Below, piece after piece: positions 5,908-10,623 of a DNA stretch of 64,000 nucleotides (its first letter is position 1; each line of letters opens with the position of its first letter). Origin of the DNA: Cecembia rubra. Lineage in GTDB: Bacteria > Bacteroidota > Bacteroidia > Cytophagales > Cyclobacteriaceae. Below the pieces are notes generated by a model, which saw nothing but the letters and a program-made list of their open reading frames with translations, made no database searches and was not told where the DNA came from. The position numbers were made by a program, and so were the translations under genes. Location of the stretch: assembly GCF_003014575.1 (NCBI RefSeq), contig NZ_PYGF01000006.1, forward strand, positions 1 through 64,000, read 5' to 3'.

Positions 5908-6399
5908 TTAATTAGGCAATTTGTCTGCAAATTTACCATATACCCATGTCCCGGCTATAGCAGATAACAAGGTTACCACTATTACAGTGAAACCACTGCC
6001 TATCTGCGCAAACAAAGGCCCTGGACATGCACCTGTAAGTGCCCAGCCTAAGCCAAAGATCAATCCTCCAATAATTTGACCTTTACGGAATTCCTTCTTT
6101 GGAATGTTGATTTTCTCTCCTGATATGGATTTGATATTCAGTCTTTTGATCAGCTGAACAGAGATCATGCCTACAATAACTGCAGATCCGATAACTCCAT
6201 ACATGAAAAATGATTGCAATCTGAACATTTCCTGAATTCTGAACCAGGAAATAATTTCTGCTTTCACGAATACTATGCCGAATAAAATACCAATGATGAG
6301 GTATTTCAGAAGACTTTCATTCTTTTTCTCCTGTAGATTAGGTGCTTCGCATTCTACCGGAGTTGTGTTTTTATTTTTTTCTGTTGCTAACATTGTCAT
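5908..6399 (-). CDS. YeeE/YedE-family half-transporter (DUF6691-like), second subunit
   Basis: This is an inner-membrane protein of about 163 residues with four or five hydrophobic segments and the motif GWALTGACPGPL. That is the second conserved cysteine-containing motif of YeeE/YedE sulfur transporters. In full-length members two such halves are fused; here each half is a separate gene. The ATG at 6399, 7 bases after the stop of the partner gene, is preferred over a frame-extended start inside that gene. Family knowledge: YeeE (TsuA) takes up thiosulfate through conserved cysteines. With the neighbouring persulfide dioxygenase, uptake of thiosulfate or another sulfane-sulfur compound is likely. 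Confidence 0.85.
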   Translation of the reverse strand: MTMLATEKNKNTTPVECEAPNLQEKKNESLLKYLIIGILFGIVFVKAEIISWFRIQEMFRLQSFFMYGVIGSAVIVGMISVQLIKRLNIKSISGEKINIPKKEFRKGQIIGGLIFGLGWALTGACPGPLFAQIGSGFTVIVVTLLSAIAGTWVYGKFADKLPN

Positions 6400-6406
6400 A
6401 TTAATT

Positions 6407-6988
6407 TTAAAATCCAACCAGAGACATAAGTGGACCAAGGAAAACATGGGTCATTAAGAATCCACCTAACATAAAGAAGATGGTGGCGACCAAAGATGGC
6501 CATTGAAGTGAGCTGATGCCCATGATGGCATGGCCTGATGTACAGCCTCCGGCATACCTAGTGCCGAAGCCTACCAAGAAACCACCGAGTACAAAGAAAA
6601 GTAATCCTTTTCCGCTCAATAGGTTTTCCCAATTGAAGATTTCAGCAGGCATTAAACTCGTATAATCTGTGATACCTAATGCTGCCAAATCCTGTTGCGT
6701 AGCTTCAGCAACAACGATTGTGTCTGGATTGGCAAAGAATGTTGTAGCAATAAAGCCACCTATCAATACCCCTAGCACAAATATGATATTCCATAATTCT
6801 TTCTTCCAGTCATAGGAAAAGAAAGGAATTCCAGCAGGTATGCAGGCAGCACATATGTGTCTTAAAGAGGATGAAATTCCAAAGGTTTTATTTCCCAGAA
6901 TAAGTAATGCTGGTACTGTCAAACCGATTAAAGGTCCTGCTACCCACCAAGGCCATGGTTGAGAGATCCATTCGATAAATTGTTCCAT
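6407..6988 (-). CDS. YeeE/YedE-family half-transporter, first subunit
   Basis: This 193-residue membrane protein carries the signature GTRYAGGCTSGHAIMG, the first cysteine motif of the YeeE/YedE family. A further HICAAC pair lies in the first cytoplasmic or re-entrant loop. It precedes the second half-transporter by 7 bases and follows the porin gene by 31 bases, so the three form one operon. The pair probably assembles as a heterodimer in the inner membrane that imports thiosulfate or a similar sulfur anion. Specificity is inferred from the family and from the neighbouring sulfur genes. Confidence 0.88.
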   Translation of the reverse strand: MEQFIEWISQPWPWWVAGPLIGLTVPALLILGNKTFGISSSLRHICAACIPAGIPFFSYDWKKELWNIIFVLGVLIGGFIATTFFANPDTIVVAEATQQDLAALGITDYTSLMPAEIFNWENLLSGKGLLFFVLGGFLVGFGTRYAGGCTSGHAIMGISSLQWPSLVATIFFMLGGFLMTHVFLGPLMSLVGF

Positions 6989-7019: not shown

Positions 7020-8414
7020 TTAAAATCTATAATCCATTACTAAGTTGATGTTCCACATTTCTACCCTGTTGATCCGTAGTCTATCTGTCATCATCTCACG
7101 GTTTTGTGGTGCTTTATTAACAACCAATAGACTTAAATTGATTCCTTCAAAGTAGTCTTTGAATCGGTAATCCAGCATGCCGGAGAAATGATAATAGGAT
7201 GGAAGCCCATATTTGTTGGTTCTGTAATCATTAACTTCGGAAAGATTGACTTTTCCTGCTCCAAATTGGGCAAACAGGCCTTTTACCGGAGTGATTAGAT
7301 CATATTTCAAAACCAAAGCATGCATGTCTCCAGCTCCTTCAAATCTTTCTCTGGACATACTTGCATAGAGAATTTCCCTCCCCCATTCTCTTGGGAAAAG
7401 GAACCTTCCTTTGTCATTAATGCCTAGAAAATTGAAAGAGACATTATGTCTACCTGAAAATAAACCAATTTTTGCACCTAAGCCAGAGGCGTTTTCATCA
7501 GGGTGAATATAGGTTTTTTGTGTGTCGGGATTTCCTCCATCATTTATCGGTATTTGGTGAAATCCCTGAATTCCTGTATGGATCCTGGTCTTGCCGATAT
7601 TAATGACATAATCAGATTGCAGAAAAGTCATATTGAAGACATTTTCAGCAAAGTAATTCCATCCCTGAAGTGTCAATCCACTTTTATGATATTGAAGTCC
7701 TGTCATGGCAATTCCTTTGGATTTGATCTTTCCTCTGTAATCGGAAGGCTCTCCATAGAGATTCCTTCCAAAGGGATAAACGCCATAAGAATCTTCAATA
7801 GTGTACCAATCCACAGTTCCCCTTATGGTCACAGAATTGATCCACATGGCAGTTAATTTAGTACTCATGCCGGAATAAACAGCAGAAAATCCGCCAAAAA
7901 CATTAGGTCGCATTCTGTTGTCCTGCTCATTGAGTAATGGTGAATTTATTTTTTGCCTTCCAAAGGTGAATTTGAACCTGTTTTTCCTATAAGACAAGTA
8001 CAATTCTTCCAATCTATCAAGCCTATTGGTATTGCTGAGGTCATTCATGTCATAGAGTAATAGTTCATACCTGTTACCAGCTCCAGTAATTGGATCTGGA
8101 ACCCGAACATTGTATTCAAATACCTGAAAGGTAAAGAACCCATTGAACCTTGCCTGAAAACCTCTCCATTCAGGTGTAGTATACCCTATCCCTGCTCCGG
8201 TTGCCAGGGTTGCATAGTCCGATAATTTCCCTTTGTTAAGGGTTGACATAAAGAAAGAACGTATGTGAAAGTCAATTTCACCGCTTTTAAGTGTTCTGCC
8301 TAAGCTTTCTTGTTCTTCCTGGACTTGGGTGCTATCCTTTTCAACTAAATCCATTTGCGCGAAACTCTGAGAGCCAGTAGCAAAAAAGATGACGAAGATC
8401 AGTAAACGAAGCAT
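7020..8414 (-). CDS. Outer-membrane porin-like beta-barrel of the sulfur operon
   Basis: The 464-residue protein starts with a signal peptide (MLRLLIFVIFFATGSQSFAQ) and continues with many alternating aromatic/polar strands, ending in a terminal strand finishing DYRF. That is the expected end of an outer-membrane barrel. A GRQKINSPLLNEQDNRM segment resembles OprD/alginate-type porins. The ATG at 8414 is chosen because the signal peptide begins there; an upstream frame extension runs through the putative operator. It is the first gene of an operon with the two YeeE halves, so it probably passes the same sulfur solute across the outer membrane. The substrate is inferred from context only. Confidence 0.8.
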   Translation of the reverse strand: MLRLLIFVIFFATGSQSFAQMDLVEKDSTQVQEEQESLGRTLKSGEIDFHIRSFFMSTLNKGKLSDYATLATGAGIGYTTPEWRGFQARFNGFFTFQVFEYNVRVPDPITGAGNRYELLLYDMNDLSNTNRLDRLEELYLSYRKNRFKFTFGRQKINSPLLNEQDNRMRPNVFGGFSAVYSGMSTKLTAMWINSVTIRGTVDWYTIEDSYGVYPFGRNLYGEPSDYRGKIKSKGIAMTGLQYHKSGLTLQGWNYFAENVFNMTFLQSDYVINIGKTRIHTGIQGFHQIPINDGGNPDTQKTYIHPDENASGLGAKIGLFSGRHNVSFNFLGINDKGRFLFPREWGREILYASMSRERFEGAGDMHALVLKYDLITPVKGLFAQFGAGKVNLSEVNDYRTNKYGLPSYYHFSGMLDYRFKDYFEGINLSLLVVNKAPQNREMMTDRLRINRVEMWNINLVMDYRF

Positions 8415-8417
8415 ATT

Positions 8418-8461
8418 CAAAATTGGCCAATCTTTACCCAGAAACAAGTGACATTTATCAC
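8418..8461 (-). promoter_or_regulatory. CRP/FNR-type palindrome and candidate promoter of the porin operon
   Basis: On the minus strand GTGATAAATGTCAC (8461-8448) is a TGA-N6-TCA palindrome. It is followed at once by TTG, and after 23 bases from the palindrome by CAATTTTG (8425-8418), a 7/8 match to the -7 consensus. The same arrangement occurs before the persulfide dioxygenase and thioredoxin genes. Oddly, the -7 box ends only 3 bases before the ATG, which would mean a leaderless transcript or a later start. Confidence 0.5.
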
Positions 8462-8479
8462 CCAAACATTCCCGATATG

Positions 8480-8508
8480 AAAAATGGCAAGGCTATATGC
8501 CTTGCCAT
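8480..8508 (-). terminator. Terminator after the persulfide dioxygenase gene
   Basis: A 10-bp stem, ATGGCAAGGC/GCCTTGCCAT, with loop TATAT is followed on the minus strand by TTTTCAT. It lies 42 bases beyond the stop codon and separates this gene from the porin operon. Confidence 0.75.
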
Positions 8509-8549
8509 CGTTCAATTTTGAATGAAATGCGACTTGTTTTTCAATTCAA

Positions 8550-9971
8550 TTATAGCATTGTAGTAGGACACACATAATCACTCACTTTGAACAGGGATGA
8601 ATCCTTGATGGCGGTAAATCCTCCTTTCACATCAATCAGGTTTTCATAACCTCGAGCTCTTAGGATAGAAGTAAATGCCATGGACCTGTATCCTCCTGCA
8701 CAGTGAACATAGTAAGTTTTGTTTTTGTCTACTTTGGTCATGCTGTCATTGATATAGTCCAATGGTGCATTGATAGAGTCGATCACATGCTCACTGTAAT
8801 GCTCGCTGGCTTTTCTTACATCAAGAATATTGACCTGGCCTTCTTTTTCTATGATTTGGGCCAATTCTTCAGCTGAGACGGATGTAATGGTGTCTATTTC
8901 TCTACCTTCTGATTTCCAGGCCTCAAACCCACCTTTGATATAACCTATACAATGATCATAACCTACCCTCGCTAATCTGGTGATGATTTCTTCCTCTTTT
9001 CCTTCTTCTGCTACCACAAGAATTTCCTGCTTGACATCTGGAATCAAAGTGCCAACCCATACTGCAAAGCTTCCTTCAATTCCAATATTGATAGAGTTGG
9101 GAATAAAACCTTTGGCAAAAACCTGCGCATCACGGGTATCCAAGATCACAGCTCCGGTCTCATTGGCCGCAGCTTCAAATGCAGCTGGATTCAATGGATT
9201 GAATCCTCTGTTCAATACCTCATCAATAGAGTCATATCCTTGAATGTTCATCAATACATTTTGTGGGAAATAAGCAGGAGGAGGTGTCAATCCGGTTAAA
9301 ACCTCTTTGATAAACTCCTCTTTTGTCATGTCCTGAAGGGCATAATTTGTCTTTTTCTGATTGCCCAAAGTATCTGTAGTCTCTTTGCTCATATTTTTAC
9401 CACAGGCACTTCCTGCTCCATGTGCAGGATAAACAATGATATCATCAGCCAAAGGCATAATTTTGTTTCTTAAGGAATCATAAAGATGTGCAGCCAGTTT
9501 TTCCTGTGTCAAATCTTTTATGACTTTCTGGGCCAAATCAGGACGTCCAACATCACCTATGAATAATGTGTCACCTGTAAAGATTGCCTCTTCCTTTCCT
9601 TCTTCATTGATCAAAAGGTAACAAGAGCTTTCCATAGTATGACCTGGGGTATGAATTACTTTGATTTTAGCTTTTCCGATTTCAAATATTTGACCATCTT
9701 CTGCTATAATGGCATCAAATCCCATTTTCATACCGGTTGGTCCGAATACAATTGGAGCGCCAGTCTTCTCTGAAAGATCTTTGTGTCCAGACACAAAATC
9801 TGCATGGAAGTGGGTCTCAAATACATACTTGATTTTTGCTCCTTCTTTTTCAGCTTTTTCTATGTAAGGCTGAACTTCTCTTAGTGGATCAATAATAGCA
9901 GCTTCTCCTTCTGATTCGATGTAATATGCCCCTTGAGCCAAACACCCGGTATAAATTTGTTCGATTTTCAT
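8550..9971 (-). CDS. Persulfide dioxygenase-rhodanese fusion (CstB/ETHE1-like)
   Basis: The protein has 473 residues in three parts. Residues 1-240 are a metallo-beta-lactamase fold with THFHADFVSGH (H54, H56, D58, H63), HTPGHT (H111) and TGDTLF (D134), the iron ligands of ETHE1-type persulfide dioxygenases. Residues about 265-350 form a rhodanese-like domain with no cysteine in the active loop, so it is probably inactive. Residues about 370-465 form a rhodanese with VHCAGGYRS (C424). This order is that of staphylococcal CstB, which oxidises low-molecular-weight persulfides to thiosulfate in the cytoplasm. Together with the downstream YeeE genes it points to sulfane-sulfur detoxification or use. 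Confidence 0.9.
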   Translation of the reverse strand: MKIEQIYTGCLAQGAYYIESEGEAAIIDPLREVQPYIEKAEKEGAKIKYVFETHFHADFVSGHKDLSEKTGAPIVFGPTGMKMGFDAIIAEDGQIFEIGKAKIKVIHTPGHTMESSCYLLINEEGKEEAIFTGDTLFIGDVGRPDLAQKVIKDLTQEKLAAHLYDSLRNKIMPLADDIIVYPAHGAGSACGKNMSKETTDTLGNQKKTNYALQDMTKEEFIKEVLTGLTPPPAYFPQNVLMNIQGYDSIDEVLNRGFNPLNPAAFEAAANETGAVILDTRDAQVFAKGFIPNSINIGIEGSFAVWVGTLIPDVKQEILVVAEEGKEEEIITRLARVGYDHCIGYIKGGFEAWKSEGREIDTITSVSAEELAQIIEKEGQVNILDVRKASEHYSEHVIDSINAPLDYINDSMTKVDKNKTYYVHCAGGYRSMAFTSILRARGYENLIDVKGGFTAIKDSSLFKVSDYVCPTTML

Positions 9972-10004
9972 ATAATAGTACTGTTTTTCAGGTTATTGAT
10001 TATG

Positions 10005-10047
10005 TAAATTTATTTTTCTCTCCATTATTTCAAAATGACATTTGTCA
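10005..10047 (-). promoter_or_regulatory. CRP/FNR-type palindrome and promoter of the persulfide dioxygenase gene
   Basis: TGACAAATGTCA (10047-10036, minus strand) is a perfect 12-base palindrome. It is followed by TTTTG as a -33 element and, 23 bases after the palindrome, by TAAATTTA (10012-10005), a 7/8 match to TAnnTTTG. The leader to the ATG is about 33 bases. An operator abutting the -33 element suggests activation from about -41.5 by a Crp/Fnr-family protein. No such regulator is in the window. Confidence 0.55.
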
Positions 10048-10231
10048 CACATTTTGGGTAAAAGTTTAGAAATACTGACGACAATATTTCACGTCATGCC
10101 GATCCGCCCCAGGTTTAGTCCTAGCTTTCCTCATTTTGGAAGCCCTCCGAATCCCAAGCTATCAGGATGGAACAGGCTTTCTCCGCCCTTGGCGGATAAG
10201 GTTGATAGGTAAAAACCTATCATTAATATGG

Positions 10232-10552
10232 TTAGACTTTCTCAGTTAAATAGCCCTCTATGGTATTTACCAACTGATGAGCCGGAACCACTCCCGATTG
10301 TCTCCATAAAATTTGGCCTTTTTGAAATAGTATTAAGGTAGGCACACCTCGAACTTGAAACTTGCTTGCTGCTAGAGGGTTTTTGTCTACATCTACTTTT
10401 ACGATTTTGATCTTTTCACCCAACTGACGTGCTGTATCTTCAAGGATAGGCTGCATCATCTGGCAAGGTCCGCACCAAGTAGCGAAAAAGTCTACCAAAA
10501 CTGGCTGATTTCCTGAAATCAATTCGCTGAATGTTAATGGTTGAGTGCTCAT
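10232..10552 (-). CDS. trx: Thioredoxin
   Basis: This is a short thioredoxin of 106 residues, the normal length, with the active site WCGPC. It has the conserved FFATWCGPCQMMQPIL segment, a VDVDKNP strand and the cis-proline loop VRGVPT. No signal peptide is seen, so it is cytoplasmic. It reduces disulfides or persulfides. Position and a similar upstream operator link it to the sulfur module. The start at 10552 (MSTQPLTF) is preferred because an exact -7 box lies 26 bases upstream and the frame extension adds only a non-conserved leader. Confidence 0.92.
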   Translation of the reverse strand: MSTQPLTFSELISGNQPVLVDFFATWCGPCQMMQPILEDTARQLGEKIKIVKVDVDKNPLAASKFQVRGVPTLILFQKGQILWRQSGVVPAHQLVNTIEGYLTEKV

Positions 10553-10578
10553 AATTGATAAGTTTAAATTGAACATTA

Positions 10579-10623
10579 CAAAATTACAGTCTATAGTTAG
10601 TTCTTGACAGTAATTTTTATCAC
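10579..10623 (-). promoter_or_regulatory. Promoter and third copy of the sulfur-module operator, before thioredoxin
   Basis: TAATTTTG (10586-10579, minus strand) is an exact -7 box, 26 bases before the thioredoxin ATG. Twenty-four bases upstream of it is TGATAAAAATTA inside GTGATAAAAATTAC (10623-10610). That differs from the porin operator at three of fourteen positions, so this is a degenerate copy of the same palindrome. Confidence 0.45.

Follow-up and report, generated by a model that had tools for sequence, protein, structure and literature searches.

The first 64,000 nucleotides of contig NZ_PYGF01000006.1 of Cecembia rubra (Bacteroidota; assembly GCF_003014575.1), the whole stretch analyzed here and hereafter called the window, carry three neighbouring sulfur-related transcription units on the minus strand: an operon of an outer-membrane porin and two half-transporters (porin-yeeE-DUF6691), a gene for a putative persulfide dioxygenase (PDO), and a thioredoxin gene. 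Ahead of each unit lies a 14-mer palindrome of the GTGA-N6-TCAC type, a putative operator, followed by a box resembling TAnnTTTG, the promoter box consensus of Bacteroidota (coordinates in Table 1). An earlier reading of this DNA, made without database searches (the sequence-only reading), had proposed that a Crp/Fnr-family activator controls these units as a sulfur regulon. The three palindromes are indeed present on the minus strand where it had placed them. The site, which it gave as TGA-N6-TCA, is the CRP-type GTGA-N6-TCAC, and in many Bacteroidota GTAA-N6-TTAC. It had also seen no regulator in the window, and we found zero proteins with a cyclic-nucleotide-binding (cNMP) domain among the window genes.

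The sites agree in their spacing, as the sequence-only reading had reported; its distances of 23, 23 and 24 bases were counted from slightly different ends, and the gap, meaning the bases that separate the 14-mer from the box, is 22, 22 and 23. We scanned both strands of the window for sites matching in 7 or more of the 8 arm positions and followed, at gaps of 5-45, by a box matching in 5 or more of 6. Exactly three matches have a gap of 22-23, and they are the porin, PDO and thioredoxin promoters, while the other gaps yield a mean of 0.31 matches each. Judged by spacing only, the three promoters have the layout of class II activator-dependent promoters, in which the dimer site is centred near -41.5 and some 22 bases separate it from the -10/-7 box.

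To follow the sites in relatives we sought PDO in 59 genomes including C. rubra; a match at E <= 1e-100 was obtained in 46 of them, and 40 stretches around the matches were taken. At the PDO, thioredoxin and porin/yeeE promoters of close relatives the site and the gap persist, while the 22-23 bases in between largely change. The 14-mer of the C. rubra porin operon (GTGATAAATGTCAC) recurs identically ahead of the porin gene in four relatives (G001, G002, G021 and G022), and in G027, where the porin gene does not adjoin yeeE, it lies directly ahead of yeeE. We then compared 71 promoter rows of eight families (PDO, thioredoxin, porin/yeeE, SQR, crp, TsdA, DUF302 and SulP), which were partly picked because a site had already been seen in C. 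rubra or a relative, the gap in the orthologues being free to vary. A good site (at least 7/8) was present in 53 rows and absent from 18, and the gap histogram covers those 53 only: the box stands at gap 22 in 33 promoters, at gap 23 in 14, and no other gap in the range 0-60 has more than two. A recount confirmed that the 47 promoters at gap 22-23 are distinct, with no double counting. By family, they comprise 7 of 7 for PDO, thioredoxin, crp and TsdA alike, 8/9 for porin/yeeE, 7/9 for SQR, 2/2 for SulP and 2/5 for DUF302. All nine SQR orthologues, that of C. rubra included, carry a 7/8 or 8/8 site at gap 22 (in two the box reaches only 4/6), and the site of TsdA, found in 7 of 8 genes, is each time at gap 23. 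The site is thus conserved at PDO, thioredoxin, porin/yeeE, SQR, crp and TsdA and partly at DUF302 and SulP, and its N6 centre and the spacer vary. Two porin rows (L093 and L095) scored low only because the anchor start lay too far upstream, and the sites GTGACCAAAGTCAC and GTGATAAAAGTCAC are present there; the porin gene of G032 (L094) had no site in either promoter comparison. Lack of conservation upstream of orthologues had been named as one of the results that would overturn the proposal, and what we found there strongly supports the site. That three AT-rich palindromes came to lie near sulfur genes by chance is therefore extremely improbable: the frequency of the motif alone does equal chance expectation, but the conservation data and the gap histogram already refute this explanation.

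Elsewhere in the genome (G000) C. rubra encodes 13 cNMP-domain proteins, one of which, a 218-residue Crp/Fnr protein encoded at C1:907648-908301, is very probably the regulator of the window sites. Its membership in the family is evident from PF00027 (38.6 bits, cut-off 27.5), PF13545 (54.6, cut-off 27) and PF00325 (35.2, cut-off 21), and the fold, in a structure model made for the Fulvivirga homologue (L328), matches the Crp family; the closest solved homologue by sequence is PDB 3dv8 (E 1.1e-18). In its recognition helix, SREVISR, it alone among the 13 has the CRP-like R-E-x-x-x-R. In E. coli CRP, according to passages of PMC11253593, Arg180 reads G2 and Glu181 and Arg185 read the G4:C4 pair of TGTGA (base-contact residues are also given in passages of PMC12531629); this fits the GTGA half-sites, set around an N6 centre. 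Homologues of the candidate are encoded close to PDO in many relatives. Ten of the 40 PDO stretches contain a matching Crp gene, and each of these matches the candidate better than any other of the 13. Across the 59 genomes, 43 have both PDO and Crp, three PDO only, five Crp only and eight neither (additional, weaker Crp matches in G001, G002, G003, G007, G015, G021, G036 and G042 were left out of the analysis). In G013 the site sits between divergent SQR and crp genes.

With 13 such proteins in the genome, one or more other Crp/Fnr paralogues, for example oxygen- or NO-responsive ones of the FNR/DNR/HcpR kind, might bind the sites and run a redox or anaerobic regulon that includes sulfur genes. 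Porphyromonas HcpR (9day) ranks sixth among the close structural matches, and at G000:C1:873571 (L348) an ATGAC-type palindrome and a TACCTTTG box at gap 22 precede what by eye is a nitrate/nitrite-transporter-like gene, a site that is perhaps one for another Crp/Fnr protein. We consider this explanation improbable, as none of the other 12 has the R-E-x-x-x-R helix or is the best match of the Crps at PDO loci, and the ten units described below are sulfur-related except for DUF302 and crp. FNR senses oxygen with a [4Fe-4S] cluster held by an N-terminal cysteine cluster; the candidate has no such cluster, its only cysteines being C78, C84 and C85.

The evidence favours the class of regulator that the sequence-only reading had proposed. 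We put at roughly 0.8 the probability that a class II Crp/Fnr activator, the protein encoded at C1:907648-908301, runs a reactive-sulfur regulon through these operators. The site, the spacing and the gene set are well supported, and the identity of the regulator is strongly inferred. The sequences themselves display the sites with their spacing and conservation, the gene set, the genomic association of the candidate, its helix and the conservation of its cysteines; that this protein binds the sites, that it activates and does not repress, and what signal it senses are what we infer. In the proposed mechanism, sulfane sulfur or a related oxidant would link C78 with C84 (or C85) and alter the dimer, which would bind GTGA-N6-TCAC through its S-R-E-V-I-S-R helix, centred some 29 bases upstream of the TAnnTTTG -7 box. 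The bound dimer would contact RNA polymerase in class II activation, replacing the -33 element. The products of the regulon (porin-yeeE-DUF6691, PDO, thioredoxin, SQR-like, TsdA-like, SoxB-like, rhodanese, SulP, DUF302 and Crp) would take in, transport and oxidise sulfide, thiosulfate and persulfide, and the site of crp itself would give feedback in C. rubra and close relatives. The site could instead be the operator of a repressor relieved by sulfur compounds, as with BigR, SqrR and CstR, persulfide-responsive regulators of such genes that are described as repressors in passages of PMC9774590 and PMC7315123. A repressor would have no need of such constant spacing, however, and a fixed gap of 22-23 is what the relevant passages of PMC3898017 describe for promoters with class II activators, so that we hold repression to be quite unlikely.

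A class II Crp/Fnr regulon of this kind would extend beyond the three operons of the window: it would comprise ten units, and doubtfully an eleventh (Table 1), with SoxB-like, DUF302, rhodanese, SulP and crp as its doubtful members. With at most one mismatch the genome has four matches at gap 22, three of which have recognisable sulfur genes downstream (rhodanese, SQR and porin) and the fourth a possible rhodanese remnant, and four at gap 23, two lying before sulfur genes (thioredoxin and TsdA) and two inside open frames. In G021 the SoxB-like orthologue likewise has a site followed by a box at gap 22. Several matches were rejected as members: C1:58513 and C14:26410, which lie inside open frames; C14:69446, C6:227174 and C2:380888, where the 14-mer matches but has no good box or falls within a frame; and C1:955257, which precedes a short frame, by eye a rhodanese remnant, with no Pfam match. 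The site of this remnant (L337 1163-1545, G000:C1 ~955,000) has the box TATCTTTG at gap 22, and an intact rhodanese gene with its own site is about 2 kb away. Directly upstream of crp, an SDR gene is preceded by a weaker site and box with two mismatches (G000:C1:906692, L350).

Table 1. Putative operators, boxes and genes of the window, and further candidate units of the regulon in the C. rubra genome (contig:position).
Feature	Coordinates	Strand	Sequence or gap	Remarks
Operator, porin-yeeE-DUF6691 operon	8461-8448	minus	GTGATAAATGTCAC	14-mer, GTGA-N6-TCAC type
Operator, PDO	10048-10035	minus	GTGACAAATGTCAT	14-mer, GTGA-N6-TCAC type
Operator, thioredoxin	10623-10610	minus	GTGATAAAAATTAC	14-mer, GTGA-N6-TCAC type
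-7-like box, porin operon	8418-8425	minus	CAATTTTG	gap 22 from operator
-7-like box, PDO	10005-10012	minus	TAAATTTA	gap 22 from operator
-7-like box, thioredoxin	10579-10586	minus	TAATTTTG	gap 23 from operator
OprD-like outer-membrane porin	7020..8414 (likely start 8414; longest frame 7020-8465)	minus		Pfam OprD 2.7e-6
YeeE half-transporter (Sulf_transp)	6407..6988	minus		Pfam PF04143 3.5e-19
DUF6691/YedE-like half-transporter	5908..6447	minus		Pfam PF20398 8.2e-12, PF04143 8e-11
PDO-type protein, metallo-beta-lactamase fold and two rhodanese stretches	8550..9971	minus		Pfam Lactamase_B 1.3e-14, Rhodanese 2.8e-30
Thioredoxin	10232..10552 (likely start 10552; upstream alternative 10576)	minus		Pfam PF00085 1.8e-29; TIGR01068 above cut-off
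SQR-like gene	C4:255936		GTGATGAAAATCAC, gap 22	NCBIfam type III-like 223.7 bits, below cut-off 525
SoxA/TsdA-type cytochrome c	C9:186915-186959		gap 23	
SulP	C1:910922-910965		gap 22	
DUF302	C1:225294-225337		gap 22	
SoxB-like protein	C1:260591-260634		gap 22	TIGR04486 E 2.2e-66, yet 224 bits against cut-off 550
Rhodanese	C1:953327-953370		gap 22	
crp	C1:907588-907632		gap 23	

The PDO activity of the window protein is predicted from its domains, and in the NCBIfam search it reached no model's cut-off. Three bases separate the porin operon's box from the likely ATG at 8414 (window 8412-8425), an arrangement retained in G001, G002, G021 and G022, which suggests that the porin operon mRNA is leaderless or nearly so. 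In relatives the element also stands ahead of a second PDO-like gene, rhodanese, a thioredoxin-like gene, TauE, a universal stress protein and a PqqD-like gene. The short PqqD-like gene has the site and a box at gap 22 in G001 and G027 (L199, L201). G028, a genome with no PDO match at E <= 1e-100, carries on contig C79 (L206) two GTGATAAAAGTCAC sites with perfect boxes, one before a frame that by eye is rhodanese-like and one before a universal stress protein.

The arms of the operator tend to vary with the recognition helix. At least 80 named loci around homologues of the candidate were obtained, most of them titled Bacteroidota, and the figures for loci hold among the matches listed. Scanning 80 of these for all perfect 4-base arms around an N6 centre, at gaps of 5-45 before a box, we found that the arm GTAA has 68 matches at gap 22 and at most four at any other gap, and that at gaps 22 and 23 together no other arm exceeds eight (ATGA 8, TTTT 8, GTGA 7). 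The Crp proteins of these loci are mostly V-type, with valine replacing the glutamate of the helix. A GTGA or GTAA site at 22-23 is present in 52 of the 80 loci, which have 78 such sites in total, 59 ahead of matches to sulfur queries or crp and 19 ahead of other frames. Among homologues with one analyzed Crp copy (G040 and G044, with two, were left out), those with an E-type helix have 28 GG (GTGA), 26 mixed and 4 AA (GTAA) sites, and those with a V-type helix 1, 16 and 83, respectively. Among class E is G034, with 4 mixed, 3 GG and 1 AA sites and a protein that has no C84; the proteins of G047, L332 and L336, counted in class V with one AA site each, have no C84 either. This split links protein and operator at one residue, and its direction, E with GTGA and V with GTAA, agrees with what is expected from the CRP base contacts (PMC11253593) and NtcA (PMC3898017), as far as passages of these papers describe them.

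The three cysteines of the candidate form a motif, C-x5-C-C, that occurs in no other of the 13 C. rubra proteins; all 129 homologues have C78, and 112 have C84. By sequence alignment the motif coincides with the cyclic-nucleotide pocket segment of CRP, and in the model it starts shortly ahead of a short helix and extends almost to the end of that helix, the block around it having a mean predicted local distance difference test score (pLDDT) of 68. The alignment made for the model (A2) covers 44 of the 80 listed loci, all 44 with three cysteines, and was not counted as evidence. A site was found in the DNA examined for 87 of the 112 homologues with C78 and C84 and for 4 of the 17 without C84, in a comparison where the amounts of DNA differ and relatedness is ignored. 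In CRP, Arg82 and Ser83 contact the phosphate of cAMP; the candidate has Lys89-Pro90 at the aligned place, a pair that varies among homologues. Because of the gene set, and because CstR, SqrR/BigR and FisR sense with two or more cysteines (passages of PMC9774590 and PMC7315123), we suggest that sulfane sulfur or a related thiol oxidant is probably sensed through these cysteines. Alternatively, the candidate could be the regulator while its pocket senses a nucleotide, heme/NO or a low-molecular-weight thiol such as glutathione, the cysteines being structural. Glutathione activates PrfA and Vfr (passages of PMC7315123), and the Eubacterium rectale protein 3dv8 carries C-x5-C as well; set against this are the Lys89-Pro90 pair, family-variable as it is, and the way the second cysteine tracks sulfur-gene sites in the comparison above, and we regard the alternative as possible but doubtful. 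For a still broader reading the odds seem to us about even: a dedicated Bacteroidota branch of Crp/Fnr proteins, in which a C-x5-C-C thiol switch replaces the cyclic-nucleotide pocket, would run a class II sulfide/thiosulfate/persulfide regulon, and a natural Glu-to-Val change in the helix would have moved that regulon between GTGA-N6-TCAC and GTAA-N6-TTAC. Such a change could be likened to the classic specificity swap by Glu181 mutants of E. coli CRP, reportedly the work of Ebright et al. in 1984.

A number of results weigh against a regulon run by this Crp. The motif is not enriched: the window has 28 copies of TGA-N6-TCA where 28.3 are expected, and in the genome the 14-mer, allowing two mismatches, occurs 598 times against 609 in a reversed control, and the composite of site, gap and box, likewise with up to two mismatches, 41 times against 37 at gap 22 and 44 against 37 at gap 23. 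The site ahead of crp is absent in G019, G028, G032 and G035 in the promoter comparison, so autoregulation is not general; it precedes crp in only 4 of the 80 listed loci, and most of the distant crp genes have no GTGA site within 300 bases. In the same 80 loci GTGA is not clearly enriched (six matches at gap 22, one at 23 and nine at 21), and a perfect-arm site precedes the PDO-like frame in 22 of the 50 loci that have such a frame. DUF302, with 11 rows, has a box at 22-23 in only two of its five promoters with a good site. PDO rows from genomes with a cysteine-type Crp lack site and box in 11 cases and have them in 26 (n=37); the corresponding counts without a cysteine-pair Crp are nine and one, G007 and G023 (over-long or truncated frames) having been assigned by hand to the cysteine-pair group and G046 entering with two PDO copies. 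Fisher values calculated for these comparisons take no account of relatedness and do not serve as proof. As for the helix, its residue changes twice on the tree (rows with sites) and the site type six times, an independent-contrast test of E/V against operator had a single supported pair (sign test p=1), these changes being too few for significance, and there are exceptions on both sides: E-type proteins with GTAA sites in G009, G018 and G050, and a V-type protein with GTGA in L313.

The sequence-only reading had accepted that a palindrome no commoner than at random loci would refute it, and this is in fact so for the motif alone and for the composite at two mismatches. We therefore rejected motif frequency as evidence, since both occur in the genome about as often as chance predicts. 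Perfect copies of the 14-mer, summed over 11 relatives, number 84 against 68 in the reversed control, which is not a clear excess. A strict composite with an exact TAnnTTTG finds only two places in the genome, the thioredoxin and rhodanese genes, against one in the control, and was relaxed because most boxes deviate at one position. The non-randomness of the sites comes from their position, spacing, gene content and conservation, not from frequency.

Among known systems, E. coli CRP at class II promoters (TGTGA-N6-TCACA) is alike in fold, in the R-E-x-x-x-R triad, in the GTGA half-site with N6 and in the position given by the spacing. It differs in that the candidate's pocket segment has C-x5-C-C and not the Arg-Ser phosphate contacts, its putative regulon is one of reactive-sulfur handling, and its promoters are of the Bacteroidota TAnnTTTG type. 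CysR of cyanobacteria is a Crp-family regulator of sulfur genes that acts in sulfate starvation. Cyanobacterial NtcA, which senses 2-oxoglutarate and controls nitrogen genes, binds GTAN8TAC 22 nt from the -10 box (passages of PMC3898017); this operator is the GTAA-N6-TTAC of most V-type homologues, and the R-V-x-x-x-R helix is common to both. Unlike the candidate, NtcA has no C-x5-C in the aligned stretch, and the candidate, with its E-type helix and mostly GTGA sites, scores 47.7 with the NCBIfam NtcA model against a cut-off of 244.95. FisR (a sigma-54 activator), BigR/SqrR (ArsR family) and CstR (CsoR-like) control the same kinds of genes, targets including SQR, PDO, tauE and yeeE/yedE in passages of PMC7315123 and PMC9774590, and sense sulfane sulfur with cysteines, but these families and their operators are unrelated. 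The review's persulfide-sensor passages name no Crp-family persulfide sensor, with "Crp" appearing in the reference list only and "Fnr" absent. The Crp-like protein A1S_1182 of Acinetobacter baumannii is known to be persulfidated (passages of PMC7315123); this protein is close to E. coli CRP and Vfr, its cysteine lies opposite the pocket, and no sulfur regulon is stated in those passages. The structural-genomics entry 3dv8 (EUBREC_1222 of Eubacterium rectale, one of the Firmicutes) shares C-x5-C with the candidate at the corresponding position and has the helix REVITR, so that the cysteine branch may not be confined to Bacteroidota. A limited literature search found no assigned regulator of sulfide or persulfide handling in Bacteroidota, and no Crp/Fnr regulator of these sulfur genes there, the latter a weak negative because "Crp/Fnr" is not searchable as a term. 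The parts are of known kinds, and their combination is new as far as the literature search showed.

Bacteroidota are common in seas, sediments and the gut. If the proposal is true, it would supply a testable regulator, an operator and a spacing rule for many of their genomes, and a natural experiment in which the operators of a regulon and its regulator change together. It would also provide a Crp/Fnr-family counterpart to the persulfide sensors of other families, and a new sensing chemistry within a textbook protein fold.

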